Shown here piece by piece: positions 8,938 through 22,859 of a DNA stretch of 25,621 nt. Position 1 is the stretch's first letter. Every line of letters begins with the position of its first letter. A program made the translations under genes and the position numbers. The notes under the pieces are model-generated. The model searched no databases, was not told where the DNA came from, and was given only the letters and a program-made list of their open reading frames with translations. Where the stretch lies: positions 1 to 25,621 of the IMG/VR virus record IMGVR_UViG_3300009124_000093. The stretch is one strand, 5' to 3'. This DNA comes from a virus.

Positions 8938-11900
8938 ATGTCAGTCAAGTTTGGTATTCCGGGAGCGGGCGCGAGCGTCCAAGACGCATCAACCACAGTC
9001 AAGGGGATCGTTCGCCTTGCCACTATCGCAGAGGCGAGCGGCAACAGTCAGACCATCGCTGTGACTCCAGCAGGAGTGCAGGCTGCCATCGCTGGCATTG
9101 TGGGCGGCATGACCTACAAAGGCCCTTATGATGTAGCCATCGCCTCACCTGATATTAGTTATGGTGAGAAGGGTGACTTTTATATCATCTCTAATGTCAA
9201 GGTGAACCCCACCGACACCAACACGACCTTTGATCGCTTTGGTAAAGAGTGGGCGGTTGGCGATCACCTCATCATCAATGAGGATCTCAGCGGCACTATC
9301 GCAGACGATCAGATTGAGAAGGTGGACAACACTGAGAAGGTTCAAGTTCTCAATGACCTCCTTGATGTGACTACTAGCTTGGAGAGTATTGGTCAGGTGC
9401 TCATCCATGATGGGACTGACTTCAAGAATCGAGTCTTGACTACGGCTGACATTGTAGGCATCGCCACTCGACTTCCAGAGCTGCTTGACGTGACCCTTAA
9501 TGAGCTCTCAAGCGCTGTCTATAGCTCGACCACATCAGCGCTGAGCTTGGTTCATAGTCGAGACTATACGATTGATCTTCTCACAGGTGAGTCAAAGACT
9601 CTCACTCTCCCCTCCTCGCTGAATGATGATGAGGATTTAATCCGTGTTGTAAACATGGGTGATGGTGAGATTGAGCTTCAGGTCACAGGTGCGGCTGTCT
9701 TTAATGTGGGCGGCTCACCCTCAACAACGCCCATCTCCGTCACGACTCAGAAGGAGCTCACCATCGTGGGCCAAGTTGAGGACTTAGGCGGGACGAACTA
9801 TGTGGCTTGGACTGTGACCCAAGCGGCCATCCCATCGCGCATGTCTCTCGTTCGCGAGGGCTCAAACGATTGGACAAACGGCTTCCTCACAGCGGCTGAC
9901 ATTGTGGGCGTGGTGACAGAGGGTCAGCTCAACGCCTTGCAAGTCGAGGTCAACAACATTGAGGCTGGAGCTGGCCTCAACAGTGATGGGACGCTGACCC
10001 CGTTTGGCGGCAATTTCATCAGCGGCAACACTACGCTCAAGCAAGCGATCAGCTCACTTGACAGCGCGCTCTATACAGAGCAACAAGCGAGGATCAGCGC
10101 AGACAATACGCTTCAGAGCAACATTGACGCTGAGGCCGTGACTCGCGCCAACGCTGACACCACGCTTCAGAACAACATCAATGCTGAGGCCACAGCTCGC
10201 GCCAACGCTGACACCAATCTTCAGAATCAGATTGATGGACTCGCCACAGTAGCGACCACAGGCGCAGCGGCTGACGTGAGCGTGGCTCATACAGCGGTGG
10301 CCTATACGCCAACGAGCGCAGACGTTGAGGCTCACATCGTTGGGATTGATGGCGCTCTTGATAGCATCCTCTCAACCAACGTCCTCAGTGTTAATGGCGA
10401 GACACCGACTCTGGGCGATGTGACCCTTGATGGGACTCACATTGACAGCCTCACGACCGCCACCAATTACACAGCGGCAGCTGCTGATATTGACGCTCAC
10501 TTGAGCGGGATCAACACCAAGTTTGGAACGCTCGACACAACTGACTCAAGCCTCCAAAGCCAGATTACAGCGCTCGCCACTGTAGCAAGCACAGGCGCAG
10601 CGGCTGATGTGAGCGTGGCGCATACTGCAACGAGCTACACACCGACAAGCGCAGACGTTGAGGCTCACATCGTTGGGATTGATGGGCAGCTCTCCACCTT
10701 GGGCTCTCAGATCGTGACTGACGTTAATGGTGAGGCTCCAGTCAACGGCTCGGTCACCTTGAACGCTGAGCACATTGACAGCGCTCACACGGCCGTTAAT
10801 TACACAGCGGCAGCGGCTGACGTTGATTCTCACATCAGCGGAATCGACACCAAGCTTGGGGAGCTCCAGACTGAGGTGGACGCGATTGAGACAGGCGCAG
10901 GGCTTAACGCTGATGGCACCTACACAGCCAACGCGAGCGCCAATTATATCTCAAGCGTGGCAAGCCTCAAGGCTGCTGACAACGCGCTCGACACTCAGCT
11001 CAAGTCAACTCAAGATGAGGTTGACGCGATTGAGACAGGCGCAGGGCTCAATGCTGATGGAACCTACAGCGCGCCAGCAGGGACTAATTACTTGGGGAGC
11101 GCCACAAGCCTCTCAAATGCTGACGTGCTGCTTGATGCTCAGATCGCGCTCATCAACTCATCACAGGTCAACACAGTCAACAGTCAGAGCCCCGATGTGT
11201 CAGGTAACGTCACAGTCGATGGGTCACAGATTGACAGCACTCACACAGCCGTTAATTACACAGCGGCAGCGGCTGATATTGACTCTCATGTGGCTGGCAT
11301 CGACACCAAGCTTGGCGATCTCCAGACTGAGGTGGACGCGATTGAGACAGGCGCGGGGCTCAACGCTGATGGCACCTACACTGCCAACGGTGGCGCGGTC
11401 TATATCTCAGGAGCCACAAGCCTCAAGAGCGCTGACAATGCGCTCGACACAGCGCTTGCTACAGCTTACACAAGGCTTGGTGTGGTCGAGGACAGCGCAG
11501 TTTATACCATCACAAGCGGCTCAACCACGCTCTCAGTCACGCCTGCAAGTAATGACTTGGTGATTGATGCTGATGACCTGGAGGCCACTCACGCAGGGGT
11601 CAACTACACAGGGCTCAGCACAGACTCGGTAGCAACTCACTTGGGGGGCATTGACACAGCCATTGGGCTCAAGGCTCCGATTGACAGCCCCACCTTTACG
11701 ACAGCCGCCAACGCGCCAACGCCAACCGCTGGCGATAACTCAACAAGTATCGCCACGACTGCCTTTGTGGCTACGGAGCTCGCCAACCTCACCACGACCG
11801 CGCAAGGCACAGCGGGAACCATGCAGACCTCAGATGGGTCTGGCGGCTTCGCTGCATCTCAGTGGGAGGTTGACACAACCTCAGGCCACTTTAGGCCAAA

Positions 11901-13431
11901 GGCTAACGAGACGTATGACTTGGGAACCTCAGCGGCTCGCGTCCGTGACCTGTACCTCAGCGCCTCCTCAATCAAGATGGGGGCGAGCGCGATTGAGGTT
12001 GGTCTGACTGATGGCGCTCATGCTCAAGGCGCTGATCACGTCAAGACCACTGATGGCGTGGTGGCGATCTGCAATACTGATGTGGCTGTGACTGATCCAG
12101 TCCTAGCGCTTGTCGCTCATACAGGCAGCTACACCGACCTCATTGACGCACCTGATAGCCTCATTCAGACCGCGAGCTTTGACACTACTGTGGGGACGTA
12201 CAACCTCAACGCAGGTCAACATCACACCTACTTCCCACCCACATCAGGAACCATGACGCTTATTCTGCCTGATAGCGTCACAGGTTCAGGCGGTGATCAT
12301 ATCCGTGTCACCAACTGGGGAAATGGTGAGCTGAAGATCACCACATCAGGAAGCAGCGCAAACACTTGGATTCAGTATGGGCAGACGCTCAGCCAAGCTC
12401 AGACAGGTGGAGGCGCTCAGCCTGAGTTTATCGTTGAGGCTCGAACCACGCTCGACCTCTATGGTTGGAGCTACAGCTCAGGCGGTACGACTTATGACCC
12501 TGCTTGGGGTGTCTACTTCGCGCCATCTATCGAGCTCAACACCAAGAGCCTCACCACATCGGGCCAGATGCTTGTCTATGATGCGACCAATGAGGAGCTC
12601 GTGGCCGGTGGCCTTGGTGACCTGACCCTCAGCTTCTCGCCTGTCAACTACGACAACACGCGAGGCGGCACAGTCACAGGTAACACTGTTGAGGATCACC
12701 TTGGCGGCATTGATGACAAGTTTGCTGACATCAGCCTTGATGAGCTCACAGACGTTGACGCGACTGTGGCCTCAGCCACATCAGGCAAGATACTTCTCCA
12801 TGATGGGGTCAACTTTAAGCCCGTCACCCATGACCTAGACAGCCTCACCGATGTGGACACAACCACCACAGCGCCTGTGGCTGATGACTTGCTCAAGTTT
12901 GACGGGTCTAACTTTGTCCCTGCTACGCTCAGCATTGATGATCTCAGTGATGTGGACACGACCACGACAGCGCCCACCACAAGTGATGTGCTGACTTGGA
13001 ACGGCTCTAGCTGGGTTCCAGATGCAGCCACCGCGACAGTGGCGAGCTTGGGTGACATTGGCGATGTGGACACCACCACCACAACTCCTGTGGATGGTGA
13101 TCTCCTCAAGTATGATGGCACCAACTGGGTTCCTGTTGAGCGCTTTGAGGTGGTTGCCACAGTCACCACAACGACAGCGCTTACAGTTCCTGAGATGGAG
13201 CAGCTCGTTAGGACAAGCGGCTCAGGCATTACGCTCAATCTGCCCAATATCGCAAGCAACAGCATTCCCGCTGGGGTTCGCTATCAAGTGAAGGTCACAG
13301 ATAGCAATCCTGTGACCATCGCCCCCAATGGCTCTGAGCTCTTAGAGGGCCTTAATTCATCCTATGCAACATCAGGAATCAAGGAAGCTCTGACGGTTCT
13401 TTGTGATGGTTCTGGGTGGTGGTTTGTCTAA
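8938..13431 (+). CDS. Long repetitive tail fibre protein
   Basis: 1497 residues. A good Shine-Dalgarno (AAGGGGG at about 8924-8930) precedes the ATG. The N-terminus (STTVKGIVRLATIAEASGN and TPAGVQAAIAGI) has the look of a phage fibre attachment region. The middle contains coiled-coil-like repeats (NNINAEATARANADTNLQNQ) and several diverged copies of blocks containing TAVNYTAAAADxDSHxxGID and EVDAIETGAGLNADGTY. A segment near residues 918-945 (SPTFTTAANAPTPTAGDNST and then SIATTAFVATEL) matches the widespread Stf-like side-fibre repeat. Near 985-1010, AARVRDLYLSASSIKMGAS is also common in fibres. Near 1275-1400 a shorter repeat, L-x-DVDTTTTxP with a following DLLKxDGxNWVP, occurs at least three times. 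The C-terminus ends GWWFV. The protein forms the slender host-binding appendage; receptor unknown. Repeats at DNA level allow recombination-driven length change. Confidence 0.9.
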   Translation: MSVKFGIPGAGASVQDASTTVKGIVRLATIAEASGNSQTIAVTPAGVQAAIAGIVGGMTYKGPYDVAIASPDISYGEKGDFYIISNVKVNPTDTNTTFDRFGKEWAVGDHLIINEDLSGTIADDQIEKVDNTEKVQVLNDLLDVTTSLESIGQVLIHDGTDFKNRVLTTADIVGIATRLPELLDVTLNELSSAVYSSTTSALSLVHSRDYTIDLLTGESKTLTLPSSLNDDEDLIRVVNMGDGEIELQVTGAAVFNVGGSPSTTPISVTTQKELTIVGQVEDLGGTNYVAWTVTQAAIPSRMSLVREGSNDWTNGFLTAADIVGVVTEGQLNALQVEVNNIEAGAGLNSDGTLTPFGGNFISGNTTLKQAISSLDSALYTEQQARISADNTLQSNIDAEAVTRANADTTLQNNINAEATARANADTNLQNQIDGLATVATTGAAADVSVAHTAVAYTPTSADVEAHIVGIDGALDSILSTNVLSVNGETPTLGDVTLDGTHIDSLTTATNYTAAAADIDAHLSGINTKFGTLDTTDSSLQSQITALATVASTGAAADVSVAHTATSYTPTSADVEAHIVGIDGQLSTLGSQIVTDVNGEAPVNGSVTLNAEHIDSAHTAVNYTAAAADVDSHISGIDTKLGELQTEVDAIETGAGLNADGTYTANASANYISSVASLKAADNALDTQLKSTQDEVDAIETGAGLNADGTYSAPAGTNYLGSATSLSNADVLLDAQIALINSSQVNTVNSQSPDVSGNVTVDGSQIDSTHTAVNYTAAAADIDSHVAGIDTKLGDLQTEVDAIETGAGLNADGTYTANGGAVYISGATSLKSADNALDTALATAYTRLGVVEDSAVYTITSGSTTLSVTPASNDLVIDADDLEATHAGVNYTGLSTDSVATHLGGIDTAIGLKAPIDSPTFTTAANAPTPTAGDNSTSIATTAFVATELANLTTTAQGTAGTMQTSDGSGGFAASQWEVDTTSGHFRPKANETYDLGTSAARVRDLYLSASSIKMGASAIEVGLTDGAHAQGADHVKTTDGVVAICNTDVAVTDPVLALVAHTGSYTDLIDAPDSLIQTASFDTTVGTYNLNAGQHHTYFPPTSGTMTLILPDSVTGSGGDHIRVTNWGNGELKITTSGSSANTWIQYGQTLSQAQTGGGAQPEFIVEARTTLDLYGWSYSSGGTTYDPAWGVYFAPSIELNTKSLTTSGQMLVYDATNEELVAGGLGDLTLSFSPVNYDNTRGGTVTGNTVEDHLGGIDDKFADISLDELTDVDATVASATSGKILLHDGVNFKPVTHDLDSLTDVDTTTTAPVADDLLKFDGSNFVPATLSIDDLSDVDTTTTAPTTSDVLTWNGSSWVPDAATATVASLGDIGDVDTTTTTPVDGDLLKYDGTNWVPVERFEVVATVTTTTALTVPEMEQLVRTSGSGITLNLPNIASNSIPAGVRYQVKVTDSNPVTIAPNGSELLEGLNSSYATSGIKEALTVLCDGSGWWFV
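10250..11450 (+). repeat. Diverged in-frame repeats inside the tail fibre gene
   Basis: Two repeat families are visible. In the first, a run of about 38 identical bases (around GCAGACGTTGAGGCTCACAT) begins near 10318 and again near 10651, 333 bases (111 codons) apart. In the second, a block containing GCCGTTAATTACACAGCGGC and, further on, GAGGTGGACGCGATTGAGAC occurs at about 10792 and 11248, 456 bases (152 codons) apart; a partial third copy of its second half lies near 11020. Periods are multiples of three, so copy-number change would keep the frame. Confidence 0.85.
12845..13135 (+). repeat. Short tandem-like repeats (DVDTTTT unit) in the fibre C-terminal region
   Basis: Copies of GATGTGGACAC followed by an ACC/ACG run start at about 12850, 12949 and 13063. 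Each encodes DVDTTTT and is followed about 12 residues later by a DGSNFVP, NGSSWVP or DGTNWVP segment. A weaker fourth copy (DVDATV, then HDGVNFKPV) precedes them. Units are 33-38 codons and diverged. They resemble the short repeats seen toward the distal end of many phage fibres. Confidence 0.75.
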
Positions 13432-20315: not shown

Positions 20316-21377
20316 ATGAAGGAAGCAGACGTAAGGCGGGCCATTGGGCTCGACACCACCCTCACCACCGCTCAGAAGTACACGCTCATCATGCTTCTCA
20401 CTCGACTCGACTGGGAGACATGGACAGGCCAAGTGAGCGCTCACGATCTCGCCACCATCAGCACCCAAGCAGACCGACAGGTCAAGCGGCACATGGCAGC
20501 GCTCAAGCGCGCTGGATGGATCGACCGCATGAGCAACCGCCGCCCTGACACTCCCCGCCTCAACCACAAGGCTGACACCATCCTCAACACAGCCCTTGTG
20601 GCTGAGATTCTCAAGGGTAGTGTCAAGAAAGACACTAGTGGCGAAAGTGACACTAGTGGCAAGAAAGACACTAGTGACAGAGTGGCACCTCAGACCATAA
20701 ATGTCACTAGTGGCGAAAAAGACACTAGTGGCGAAAGTGACACAGGGGTAGTGGCGAAAACGACACTAGAGGGGTGTCAAGAAAGACACAGGGGTAGTGG
20801 CGAAAGTGACACAGGGGTAGTGGCGAAAACGCCACCCAATATCAATATAGATCAATATAATATCAATATAGATCAATCTGACATCAATGAGGCTGAGCCT
20901 GAGGCTGAGAGCACACGCGAGGAGGAGGAGGAGCTCAGAGCAGCTCAATGGGATCAGATCATGGCCAAGGCTGAGGAGCTCCCGCCACCACCTCCACCGC
21001 CAACAGTGTCACAGCGTGAGGACGGTTTATATATTCTCAGTCATATCAATGATGATCTCGACTACAAGCGTGAGGTCTATCGTGAGCTCACTCATCACAA
21101 GCGCCAAGACATTAGGGACGCCCTGTGGGCGCGGGGTAATGATGAGCTGTTCACCAAGATGATGGGCGAGCTCATAGCTCCACGCTCAGCCATTGATTGG
21201 GTGACGTTCATCGCGAGCGGTCACAAGCCAAGCGTCTCCACGCCAGCGGCGCCACCTCCCAAGCCAACCTCTTGGACGGTCACCGTTGACCAACAGCAGA
21301 AGATCAAGGAGGCTGACAGCGCATGGCTTAGCGCCGACTATGGAACAGCAGACAAGAAGAATGGAGGATGGCATTGA
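20316..21377 (+). CDS. Phage replication initiator (lambda O-like) containing the probable origin
   Basis: 353 residues. Residues 1-90 look like a winged-helix DNA-binding domain: TTAQKYTLIMLLTRLDWETW, then VSAHDLATISTQADRQVKRH and MAALKRAGWIDRM, the helix-turn-helix plus wing layout of phage replication initiators. The central part (about residues 102-190) is low-complexity and encoded by DNA repeats and an AT-rich tract that resemble an origin (separate entries). An acidic stretch (EEEEEL) and a Pro-run (PPPPPP) separate it from the C-terminal region (about 245-310, DYKREVYRELTHHKRQDIRD) that likely contacts the helicase loader encoded next. This matches the lambda O-P arrangement: initiator binds iterons in its own gene and recruits the helicase via the loader. 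Starts just after the strong divergent promoter; overlaps the loader gene by ten bases. Confidence 0.82.
   Translation: MKEADVRRAIGLDTTLTTAQKYTLIMLLTRLDWETWTGQVSAHDLATISTQADRQVKRHMAALKRAGWIDRMSNRRPDTPRLNHKADTILNTALVAEILKGSVKKDTSGESDTSGKKDTSDRVAPQTINVTSGEKDTSGESDTGVVAKTTLEGCQERHRGSGESDTGVVAKTPPNINIDQYNINIDQSDINEAEPEAESTREEEEELRAAQWDQIMAKAEELPPPPPPPTVSQREDGLYILSHINDDLDYKREVYRELTHHKRQDIRDALWARGNDELFTKMMGELIAPRSAIDWVTFIASGHKPSVSTPAAPPPKPTSWTVTVDQQQKIKEADSAWLSADYGTADKKNGGWH
20619..20830 (+). repeat. Iteron-like array: probable replication origin within the initiator gene
   Basis: About nine copies of a unit starting GACAC and carrying AGTGGC(GAAA) begin at 20631, 20649, 20667, 20703, 20721, 20739, 20762, 20785 and 20808. 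The first six are 18 or 36 bases apart with core GACACTAGTGGC (the ACTAGT palindrome; the 20703 copy has GTCAC); the last three follow at 23-base steps, and the 20739, 20785 and 20808 units read GACACAGGGGTAGTGGC. A perfect inverted repeat GTGTCAAGAAAGACAC occurs at 20620-20635 and again at 20774-20789. By analogy with the iterons in lambda gene O, these are probable initiator binding sites. Confidence 0.8.
20838..20890 (+). other. AT-rich origin segment with two 19-base direct repeats (probable unwinding element)
   Basis: AATATCAATATAGATCAAT occurs at 20838-20856 and 20859-20877 (21-base period), followed by further CAATCTGACATCAATG. It is the most AT-rich stretch of the window inside a GC-rich gene, directly after the iteron array, as the DNA unwinding element lies beside the iterons in lambda and iteron plasmids. 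Each copy holds a GATC. It encodes NINIDQ twice. Confidence 0.7.
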
Positions 21378-22174
21378 TCGACTACCACAACATCACAGCT
21401 GAGAACTTCCCCGCTGAGGAGTGGCTCAGCTCCTCAGGCTACCTCAGCACAACGCCGCTCCCTTATTGCGGTGAGTGCTTTGAGGGGATCGTCTATGAGA
21501 AGCCACCACCACCCACGGCGCCCATCGCTCGCCGCTGCCCAACATGCACCCCGCTCCGCTCAAGGCTCAAGCGCTTGGAGGAGGCCCGCCTCCCCTTCCT
21601 CGCTCATCAGCACACCTTGAACGGCTATGAGTGGGACAGCCCAGAACAGCGCAACAGGGTGGGCGCTGTGCTTGATTGGATTCATGGCAACACCGACCCC
21701 ATTGACAAGCCCGCCGTCATGCTGTGGGGCAAGCCTGGCAACGGCAAGAGCACCATCCTCCATATCCTCGCCAAGCATGCGATCTTCGAGGGGAAGCGCG
21801 CTCTGTTCCTCACCCATGAGGGGCTCTTTGCTGATATCCGCGCCTCATGGAAGGCGAACAGCCTCAACCTCCATGAGATGCTTGAGAAGGTTGACCTGCT
21901 CTGCTTGGACGAGCTCGGCGGCCTAGGTGGCGGTGGGCGGTGGTCTGAGTGGTACAGGTCACAGACTAGAGAGATGATTGGCGCGATCTATGACCGATGG
22001 GCAGCCAAGACGCTCTCCGTGGTCGCAACCTCCAACCTAGCTCCCAAGACGATCATTCATGACCTATGCGATAACAACAGCGCGGTGAGGTCGAGGCTTG
22101 GCGCGATCTTTGGGCGGCCTGTGCAGATGATGGGCCATGATCGGCGCGCTGGCGTTGATGATGGGTGGGGTTAA
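21368..22174 (+). CDS. AAA+ helicase loader (DnaC/IstB-like, lambda P functional analogue)
   Basis: 268 residues. Loads the replicative helicase at the origin. An N-terminal Cys4 zinc-binding pair is visible (C34-x2-C37 in YCGECFEG and C57-x2-C60 in RRCPTC). The ATPase core shows Walker A GKPGNGKS (121-128), Walker B LLCLDELG with D181 and E182, sensor 1 in VVATSNLAP (around 221-223), and a possible arginine finger R241 in SAVRSRLG. These are DnaC/DnaI family features and size is typical (about 250-270). The ATG lies ten bases before the initiator stop, so the two are co-translated and probably interact. No helicase gene is in view, so it probably loads the host DnaB-type helicase. Confidence 0.9.
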   Translation: MALIDYHNITAENFPAEEWLSSSGYLSTTPLPYCGECFEGIVYEKPPPPTAPIARRCPTCTPLRSRLKRLEEARLPFLAHQHTLNGYEWDSPEQRNRVGAVLDWIHGNTDPIDKPAVMLWGKPGNGKSTILHILAKHAIFEGKRALFLTHEGLFADIRASWKANSLNLHEMLEKVDLLCLDELGGLGGGGRWSEWYRSQTREMIGAIYDRWAAKTLSVVATSNLAPKTIIHDLCDNNSAVRSRLGAIFGRPVQMMGHDRRAGVDDGWG

Positions 22175-22175
22175 G

Positions 22176-22859
22176 ATGAACATAAAGAAACTCGACCGAT
22201 CCAAGTTCAAGACAAGTCATGTGCTGTATGTCTTGAAGTCAGATGACCTCGGAGGGCTCTATTATATCGGCTGCCACTCATGCACAGGGATGTCATACAA
22301 CTGCACAAAGTTTAAATGCCACTATAGAGGCAGCTCATCCACTATCACTGACCTAGTTGCTTTACACCCTGAAGCCCGTTGGGTCATGACGGCTCTAGCG
22401 TATGCGTCAGATCGAGAGGAGCTCAAGACGTTGGAGGAGATGCATATCGGTCTTCATGTGGGCCACCCTAAGTGCCTTAACATCAAAACATCAGGGCAGT
22501 CGATGCCAAAGCATACCCCCGAAGGCAAGGAGCGAATAAGGTTAGCGACTAGAGCCAAGGGATACAGAATGAAGAAGCAGAATGGGGAAGATGTGCTTAT
22601 CAAGAAAGAGCATCTGAGGTCAGCAATCTTGGCTGGCTACTCATTTAAACGTCTTAACATCAAGATCAAAAGTTATGAGCACAAGGTTCAAGCATTTGTT
22701 GGAACAAACACCCTCACTCAAGTCCTTATAGAGCTCTTGGATCAAGGGTGGGAGATTGGAGAGGATAGGCGCTTGACCATGATCAGTGCAGCAGAGTTTT
22801 GGAGTCTTGTCGGCTATAGAGTTGAGCAGCAAACGCGCTTTGTCGTAGTGCCTGTCTAG
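22176..22859 (+). CDS. GIY-YIG family nuclease (probable free-standing homing endonuclease)
   Basis: 227 residues from the ATG at 22176, one base after the loader stop; an upstream in-frame ATG at 22137 would run into the loader gene and is less likely. The N-terminal domain carries the split GIY-YIG pattern: HVLYVLKSDD followed by GGLYYIGCHS, then YRGSSSTITDL, where phage GIY-YIG enzymes of the Seg/Mob type have a YxGSS motif. Catalytic Arg/Glu candidates follow at R70 and E78 (SDREELKTLEE). The rest is a basic domain that could bind DNA (NIKTSGQSMPKHTPEGKERI is reminiscent of NUMOD-type tails; RIRLATRAKGYRMKKQNG). DNA is more AT-rich than its neighbours, suggesting recent acquisition. It meets thyX tail-to-tail with 12 bases between. 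Confidence 0.72.
   Translation: MNIKKLDRSKFKTSHVLYVLKSDDLGGLYYIGCHSCTGMSYNCTKFKCHYRGSSSTITDLVALHPEARWVMTALAYASDREELKTLEEMHIGLHVGHPKCLNIKTSGQSMPKHTPEGKERIRLATRAKGYRMKKQNGEDVLIKKEHLRSAILAGYSFKRLNIKIKSYEHKVQAFVGTNTLTQVLIELLDQGWEIGEDRRLTMISAAEFWSLVGYRVEQQTRFVVVPV

Follow-up and report, generated by a model that had tools for sequence, protein, structure and literature searches.

The array of repeats within the putative initiator gene of this virus is most probably a phage replication origin encoded inside the gene of its own initiator, similar to the ori/O arrangement of phage lambda. The probability of this reading was put at roughly 90%, based on sequence, structure modeling, and comparative analysis. 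The window (the whole stretch of 25,621 nucleotides analyzed here) contained an O-like replication initiator gene (20316-21377, + strand; 353 amino acids), identified by weak PHROG matches, by its layout, and by its homologs, in which the putative origin was located. The resemblance to the in-gene iterons of lambda O had been proposed in an earlier note on this DNA, and it was supported by the palindromic array, by the AT-rich DNA flanking it, and by the presence of a DnaC-like loader as the next gene.

Nine exact copies of AGTGKC-N6-GMCACT, a hyphenated palindrome of 18 bp whose core is A-rich, were found at 20619-20836, inside the initiator gene. The full array over this span, in the middle of the gene and some 300 bp past its start codon, was made up of these nine perfect iterons and two degenerate 18-bp slots. 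The N6 cores were GAAAGT, AAGAAA, GAAAAC, and GAAAAA. The first three iterons abutted one another: iteron 1 (AGTGTCAAGAAAGACACT) at 20619-20636, iteron 2 (AGTGGCGAAAGTGACACT) at 20637-20654, and iteron 3 (AGTGGCAAGAAAGACACT) at 20655-20672. These were followed by the degenerate slots (20673-20708), which kept the register with an AGTGAC left half and a GTCACT right half, and by iteron 4 (AGTGGCGAAAAAGACACT) at 20709-20726. Iterons 1-4 were thus spaced in multiples of 18 bp without a linker, and neighboring units created an ACT/AGT junction. Iteron 5 (AGTGGCGAAAGTGACACA, 20727-20744) opened a zone with a pitch of 23 bp, produced by a 5-bp linker of either GGGGT or AGAGG: GGGGT (20745-20749), iteron 6 (AGTGGCGAAAACGACACT, 20750-20767), AGAGG (20768-20772), iteron 7 (GGTGTCAAGAAAGACACA, 20773-20790), GGGGT (20791-20795), iteron 8 (AGTGGCGAAAGTGACACA, 20796-20813), GGGGT (20814-20818), and iteron 9 (AGTGGCGAAAACGCCACC, 20819-20836), the end of which was also the right-hand breakpoint in identity profiles against the type B relatives described below. 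When close relatives were compared, most of the substitutions in the array were located in the degenerate slots or the linkers.

The repeats and their 18- and 23-bp pitches were therefore present as first described, and a 17-base unit did recur, but its register was not correct, as that unit straddles two neighboring iterons. AGTGKC-(GAAAGT/AAGAAA/GAAAAC)-GMCAC was constant across the change in pitch, which indicates that the 17-base unit consists of the right half of one iteron, the linker, and the left half of the next, and that the apparent switch from 18 to 23 bp is a change of linker from 0 to 5 bp with no new motif. A separate and longer binding unit, GGGGTAGT, to which the array had been thought to switch, was accordingly rejected, since the unit AGTGKC-N6-GMCAC was unchanged and only the linker between iterons varied.

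Chance was excluded as the source of the array by two comparisons. RGTGKC-N6-GMCAC had nine exact matches on the + strand of the whole window, all of them in 20619-20836; with one mismatch allowed and both strands searched there were 27 matches, versus a mean of 3.8 and a maximum of 13 in shuffled sequences. When synonymous codons were resampled with the protein held fixed, none of the 2000 trials reached nine sites (mean 0.18, maximum 3).

The repetition could also be explained at the level of the protein, if the peptides DTSGES and DTSGKK were selected and the DNA repeats were a by-product of recent duplication. The 18-bp zone is read in one frame, and the type C iterons of relatives are nearly always read in a single frame, both of which fit such an explanation, but several lines of evidence made it extremely improbable. 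Identical DNA was read in all three frames (SGESDTS, VVAKTTL, and GCQERHR), as the earlier note had observed: GACACAGGGGTAGTGGC is translated as DTGVVA at 20739 and 20808 and as RHRGSG at 20785, and the copy at 20762 is in the remaining frame. Unrelated peptides were swapped in at this location among homologs, and the last iteron was inverted in the A3 relatives (GGTGTCACTTTCGCCACC). Residues 104-194, the span encoded by the array and the AT-rich DNA, were predicted by AlphaFold2 to be disordered (pLDDT <50), consistent with the proposal that the protein tolerates any frame as a flexible linker. Furthermore, four-fold degenerate sites were nearly constant within the half-sites. In pairs of close relatives, 16 of 573 such sites in the half-sites differed (22 of 611 when an iteron was required in only one sequence of the pair), whereas the coding region flanking the array had 520 differences at 1866 sites in its N-terminal part and 701 at 1922 sites in its C-terminal part. 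This amounts to 2.8-3.6% in half-sites versus 28-37% in flanking codons, an approximately tenfold difference seen in every group, though the pairs are non-independent and gene conversion between iterons may enlarge the gap. These data agree with the suggestion that selection acts on the DNA.

The protein itself resembled known initiators weakly in sequence. Its PHROG matches were weak ('replication initiation O-like' phrog_391 with an E value of 1e-4, phrog_345, and phrog_678), there was no Pfam match for the whole initiator of the window, and a search by sequence against solved structures found nothing relevant. The type C domain from relatives matched PF04492 (Phage_rep_O) with an E value of 0.009, which fell short of the cut-off, and profile comparison with lambda O using hhalign gave a probability of 1%, which was not significant. 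Membership in the Phage_rep_O family (PF04492), which includes lambda O, was therefore indicated by neither Pfam nor hhalign. Classification as an iteron-plasmid Rep initiator was also rejected because there was no Rep family among the Pfam matches and because the iterons were in the coding sequence rather than outside rep.

The AlphaFold2 model predicted an N-terminal winged-helix DNA-binding domain (DBD) of type A at amino acids 1-100 (20316-20615, + strand), with helices at 3-12, 18-28, 42-49, and 53-65 and strands at 69-73 and 86-90. The pLDDT was mostly 92-96 for amino acids 1-70 and 69-95 for amino acids 71-100. The helix at amino acids 53-65 (20472-20510, + strand), which includes Lys57, is the putative recognition helix according to the model and the alignment. 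The C-terminal domain (amino acids 196-353; 20901-21374, + strand), of backbone type alpha, was modeled as helical and, from the model and trees, is presumed to bind the loader. The top PDB matches of the DBD in Foldseek were MarR-like winged helices, none with E ≤ 0.001. A MarR-like fold would also fit the repeats being an array of operators, that is, sites for transcription control (autoregulation or partition) rather than for the start of replication, and the location of the array inside a gene and the abutting of the distal iterons, as in operator sites, are in keeping with that possibility. It was nevertheless judged very unlikely, because the array is mid-gene, about 300 bp past the start codon, beside AT-rich DNA and a helicase loader gene, and because this layout was retained in distant relatives.

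The AT-rich region, at 20837-20888, is a candidate unwinding element with ATCAAT at a spacing of 10-11 bp. ATCAAY at a spacing of 10-12 bp was found beside the array both in this region and in L181 (from ~2330), in unrelated C-terminal settings, and could possibly be a helically phased unwinding or single-strand binding motif. It did not qualify as a universal unwinding motif: the regular spacing of 10-11 bp was seen in L181 and in the majority of type A and B genes, but type C genes had few copies and A2 genes had none. The gene downstream of the initiator (21368-22174, + strand) was predicted to encode a DnaC-like helicase loader, an AAA ATPase, from its matches to phrog_50 (E 9e-18), phrog_3277 (E 7e-13), and IstB_IS21 (E 1.6e-6). 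In the proposed replication mechanism, dimers of the winged-helix DBD would each bind one 18-bp palindromic iteron, and nine to eleven bound dimers would form a complex similar to the O-some. The AT-rich DNA at 20837-20888 would melt next to this complex, and the C-terminal domain would recruit the DnaC-like loader encoded by the next gene, which would place the host helicase.

A homing-endonuclease-like gene (phrog_314; 22137-22859) directly followed the loader gene and overlapped its end in the window. Homologs were found sporadically at the same place in L022, L023, L036, L062, and L095, which have origin types A, B, and C. As it was sporadic and was present with all three types alike, this gene was rejected as the driver of the exchanges described below. 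Elsewhere in the window, tandem DNA repeats with periods of 54, 333, and 144 bp were found at 10108-11124 within an open reading frame (8938-13431) that probably encodes a tail protein with duplicated segments.

No close relative of the initiator, the loader, or the window DNA was found among deposited phages, and the type A domain was not found in bacterial genomes. IMG/VR contained eight direct relatives, and many more were recovered via searches with the loader and the domains. The analysis of mosaicism included approximately 50 related IMG/VR contigs, 49 of them with a readable DBD. Three types of DBD, each with an iteron of its own, were found on several C-terminal backbones, indicating that the initiator is a mosaic. 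The type A iteron was GTGKC-N6-GMCAC, the type B iteron was GTGAC-N5-GTCAC, and the type C iteron was asymmetric (GACANNNTTGGT) and was found in both orientations. Apart from short partial genes, there were 5-9 copies of the matching motif in each gene and essentially none of the motifs of the other types. The exceptions to this pairing of DBD type and iteron were L068, L075, and L076, which are divergent and each have a separate array.

It is also conceivable that the iterons are a decoy or an inert relic and that replication starts elsewhere, for example at a second origin outside the fragment, given that the record is a 25.6-kb fragment of a genome and that two of the slots are degenerate. 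The strong constraint on the iteron bases and the constant presence of the array in relatives made this highly improbable. A search for homologs that retained the flanking domains without the repeats, a case that the earlier note had named as refuting its reading, found an array in every initiator of the A/B/C clade with a readable array and in the 14 distant relatives for which the arrays were inspected. In these distant relatives, with loaders 36-49% identical, the winged helix, the repeat array, and the loader were all retained, while the iterons had other sequences, commonly with an A-rich core. A scan of bacterial genomes for paired type B iterons, the only type scanned, identified two contigs and no decoy; both are winged-helix genes with in-gene arrays and thus not decoys. 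The initiators on these contigs shared GTGACAGAAAGTCAC with type B and had a different winged helix.

Within the origin reading, the distribution of the DBD types indicated repeated exchange. DBD identity was 59-100% within types and 26-48% between types. Four C-terminal backbones were each found with all three types, and a fifth was found with types B and C; some of these combinations were represented by one contig, and others recurred in independent metagenomes. By parsimony, the number of changes in DBD type was 2 on the tree of the DBD, 16 on that of the C-terminal domain, and 13 on that of the loader, which puts the moves of the DBD cassette at ~13 or more. In phylogenetically independent pairs from the C-terminal tree, DBD and iteron types agreed in 6 of 6 pairs for type A, 7 of 7 for type B, and 6 of 6 for type C (sign test p = 0.03, 0.016, and 0.03, respectively). 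In the trees the loader followed the C-terminal backbone and not the DBD.

Comparison of phages with the alpha backbone located the exchanged segment. Their DNA flanks were 84-95% identical, whereas the cassette segment, which started close to the initiation codon or as much as ~135 bp before it and ran through the array, was unrelated. Against type B (L018, L025), identity rose to ≥95% from gene position ~520, which is 20836, the end of the last iteron; against type C, the breakpoint was some tens of bases beyond the array end. As some combinations recurred in independent metagenomes and the DBD and the array are within ~600 bp, assembly chimeras are an unlikely source of the link between them. 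Close linkage alone could in part account for their co-inheritance over ~500 bp, but the perfect association over at least 13 swaps and the right-hand breakpoints just past the array argue against linkage alone. The type B array of L018 (from ~5295), on an alpha backbone, included one type-A-like stretch, AAGAAAGACACTAGTGACAG, which may be the scar of recombination between arrays.

Within the A/B/C clade, Lys57 was replaced in just two cases: K57F (L068, 4001-5005) and K57Q (type C2, for example L032, 775-1989). Both accompanied altered half-sites, CTGTC and ACGAC versus GTGNC. However, the initiators of the two bacterial contigs have Ile at this position, as read by eye, and yet use GTGAC, so that a recognition code at Lys57 is at present a weak lead.

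The pitch of the iterons also differed among types. It was 18, 18, 54, 18, 23, 23, 23, 23 in A1, multiples of 18 followed by four intervals of 23 in A3, and 45 five times and then 23 in A2; type B arrays ended mostly in 23, 22, 23, 22, and type C arrays had intervals of 21-24 plus longer gaps. In A3 the last iteron, GGTGTCACTTTCGCCACC, was in inverted orientation. In A2 (L028-L030) strong iterons recurred every 45 bp, which is two steps of 22.5 bp, and the intervening DNA was more weakly palindrome-like, as though alternate sites had decayed. The abutting 18-bp zone was peculiar to A1 and A3, in which the AT-proximal 23-bp zone was also kept. Next to the AT-rich DNA, a pitch of 22-23 bp is thus the norm, as it is in lambda (20, 24, 23), and it is the 18-bp zone that is exceptional. 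The two binding modes suggested earlier were not supported as a switch of unit, though a weaker form is possible, in which an AT-distal zone of abutting 18-bp iterons is distinguished from an AT-proximal 23-bp zone. By analogy with lambda and the Stx phages, the AT-distal zone may raise affinity or the local concentration of the initiator, and the AT-proximal iterons at 22-23 bp are probably those needed for melting.

The type specificity of lambda O and ori is a textbook result based on a handful of hybrids. In-gene origins and the swapping of DBDs with origins are already known, and the apparent novelty lies in the extent of the natural exchange and in its near-factorial form, with three specificity cassettes on four backbones in an uncultivated phage group. 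Such a set makes recognition between DBD and iteron and recognition between C-terminal domain and loader separately testable with natural sequences, and alleles common to diverged backbones make the causes of changes in origin specificity testable. One tentative explanation, itself somewhat doubtful, is that negative frequency-dependent selection keeps the three cassette alleles (DBD plus iterons) circulating on at least four diverged backbones. If so, rare origin types would escape, for example, origin decoys, satellites, origin-directed nucleases, or co-infecting relatives. Ectopic copies of the lambda origin arrest lambda, a cost of having a common origin type (PMC4488673), and a lambda/P22 replication hybrid evades inhibition by ori-lambda plasmids (PMC3349717).

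Among known systems, the PLE satellites also exchange the iterons and the origin-binding domain, that of RepA, as modules, and ICP1 Odn, an origin-directed nuclease that cuts satellite origins, was proposed as the selective force (PMC8263062). PLE differ from the present phages in being satellites whose origin region is noncoding and whose initiator is RepA, and no origin-directed nuclease was found in the present group. The closer likeness is to lambda ori/O and P, in which the origin is mid-gene in the initiator, the AT-rich region is on the same side, and the loader gene is next. The window likewise had an iteron array within the initiator coding sequence, hyphenated palindromes of ~18 bp with an A-rich core, an AT-rich flank on the C-terminal side of the array, a DnaC-like helicase-loader gene directly downstream, and, from the model and trees, an N-terminal DBD, a flexible middle, and a putative C-terminal loader-binding domain. 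Lambda iterons are also 18 bp, and their pitch of 20, 24, and 23 gives a mean of ~22 bp at the AT-rich end. In lambda, two iterons beside the AT-rich region together with that region are the minimal unwinding unit, and in Stx phages (P27 and 933W variants) extra AT-distal iterons, six versus four, are needed for plasmid establishment (PMC7466680). The window differs from lambda in that its initiator has no detectable sequence homology to lambda O, its loader is a DnaC-like AAA protein instead of P, and its array comprises 9-11 iterons, which in the AT-distal zone abut as 18-bp units. In the lambda-phi80 and lambda-82 O hybrids of Furth and Yates in 1978, a study cited in PMC6022878, the N-terminal part of O reportedly stayed with its own origin and the C-terminal part stayed with P. 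The type specificity is alike in that the DBD part goes with the origin, but those were laboratory hybrids of a few phages, whereas here there were at least 13 natural events involving three alleles on several backbones.
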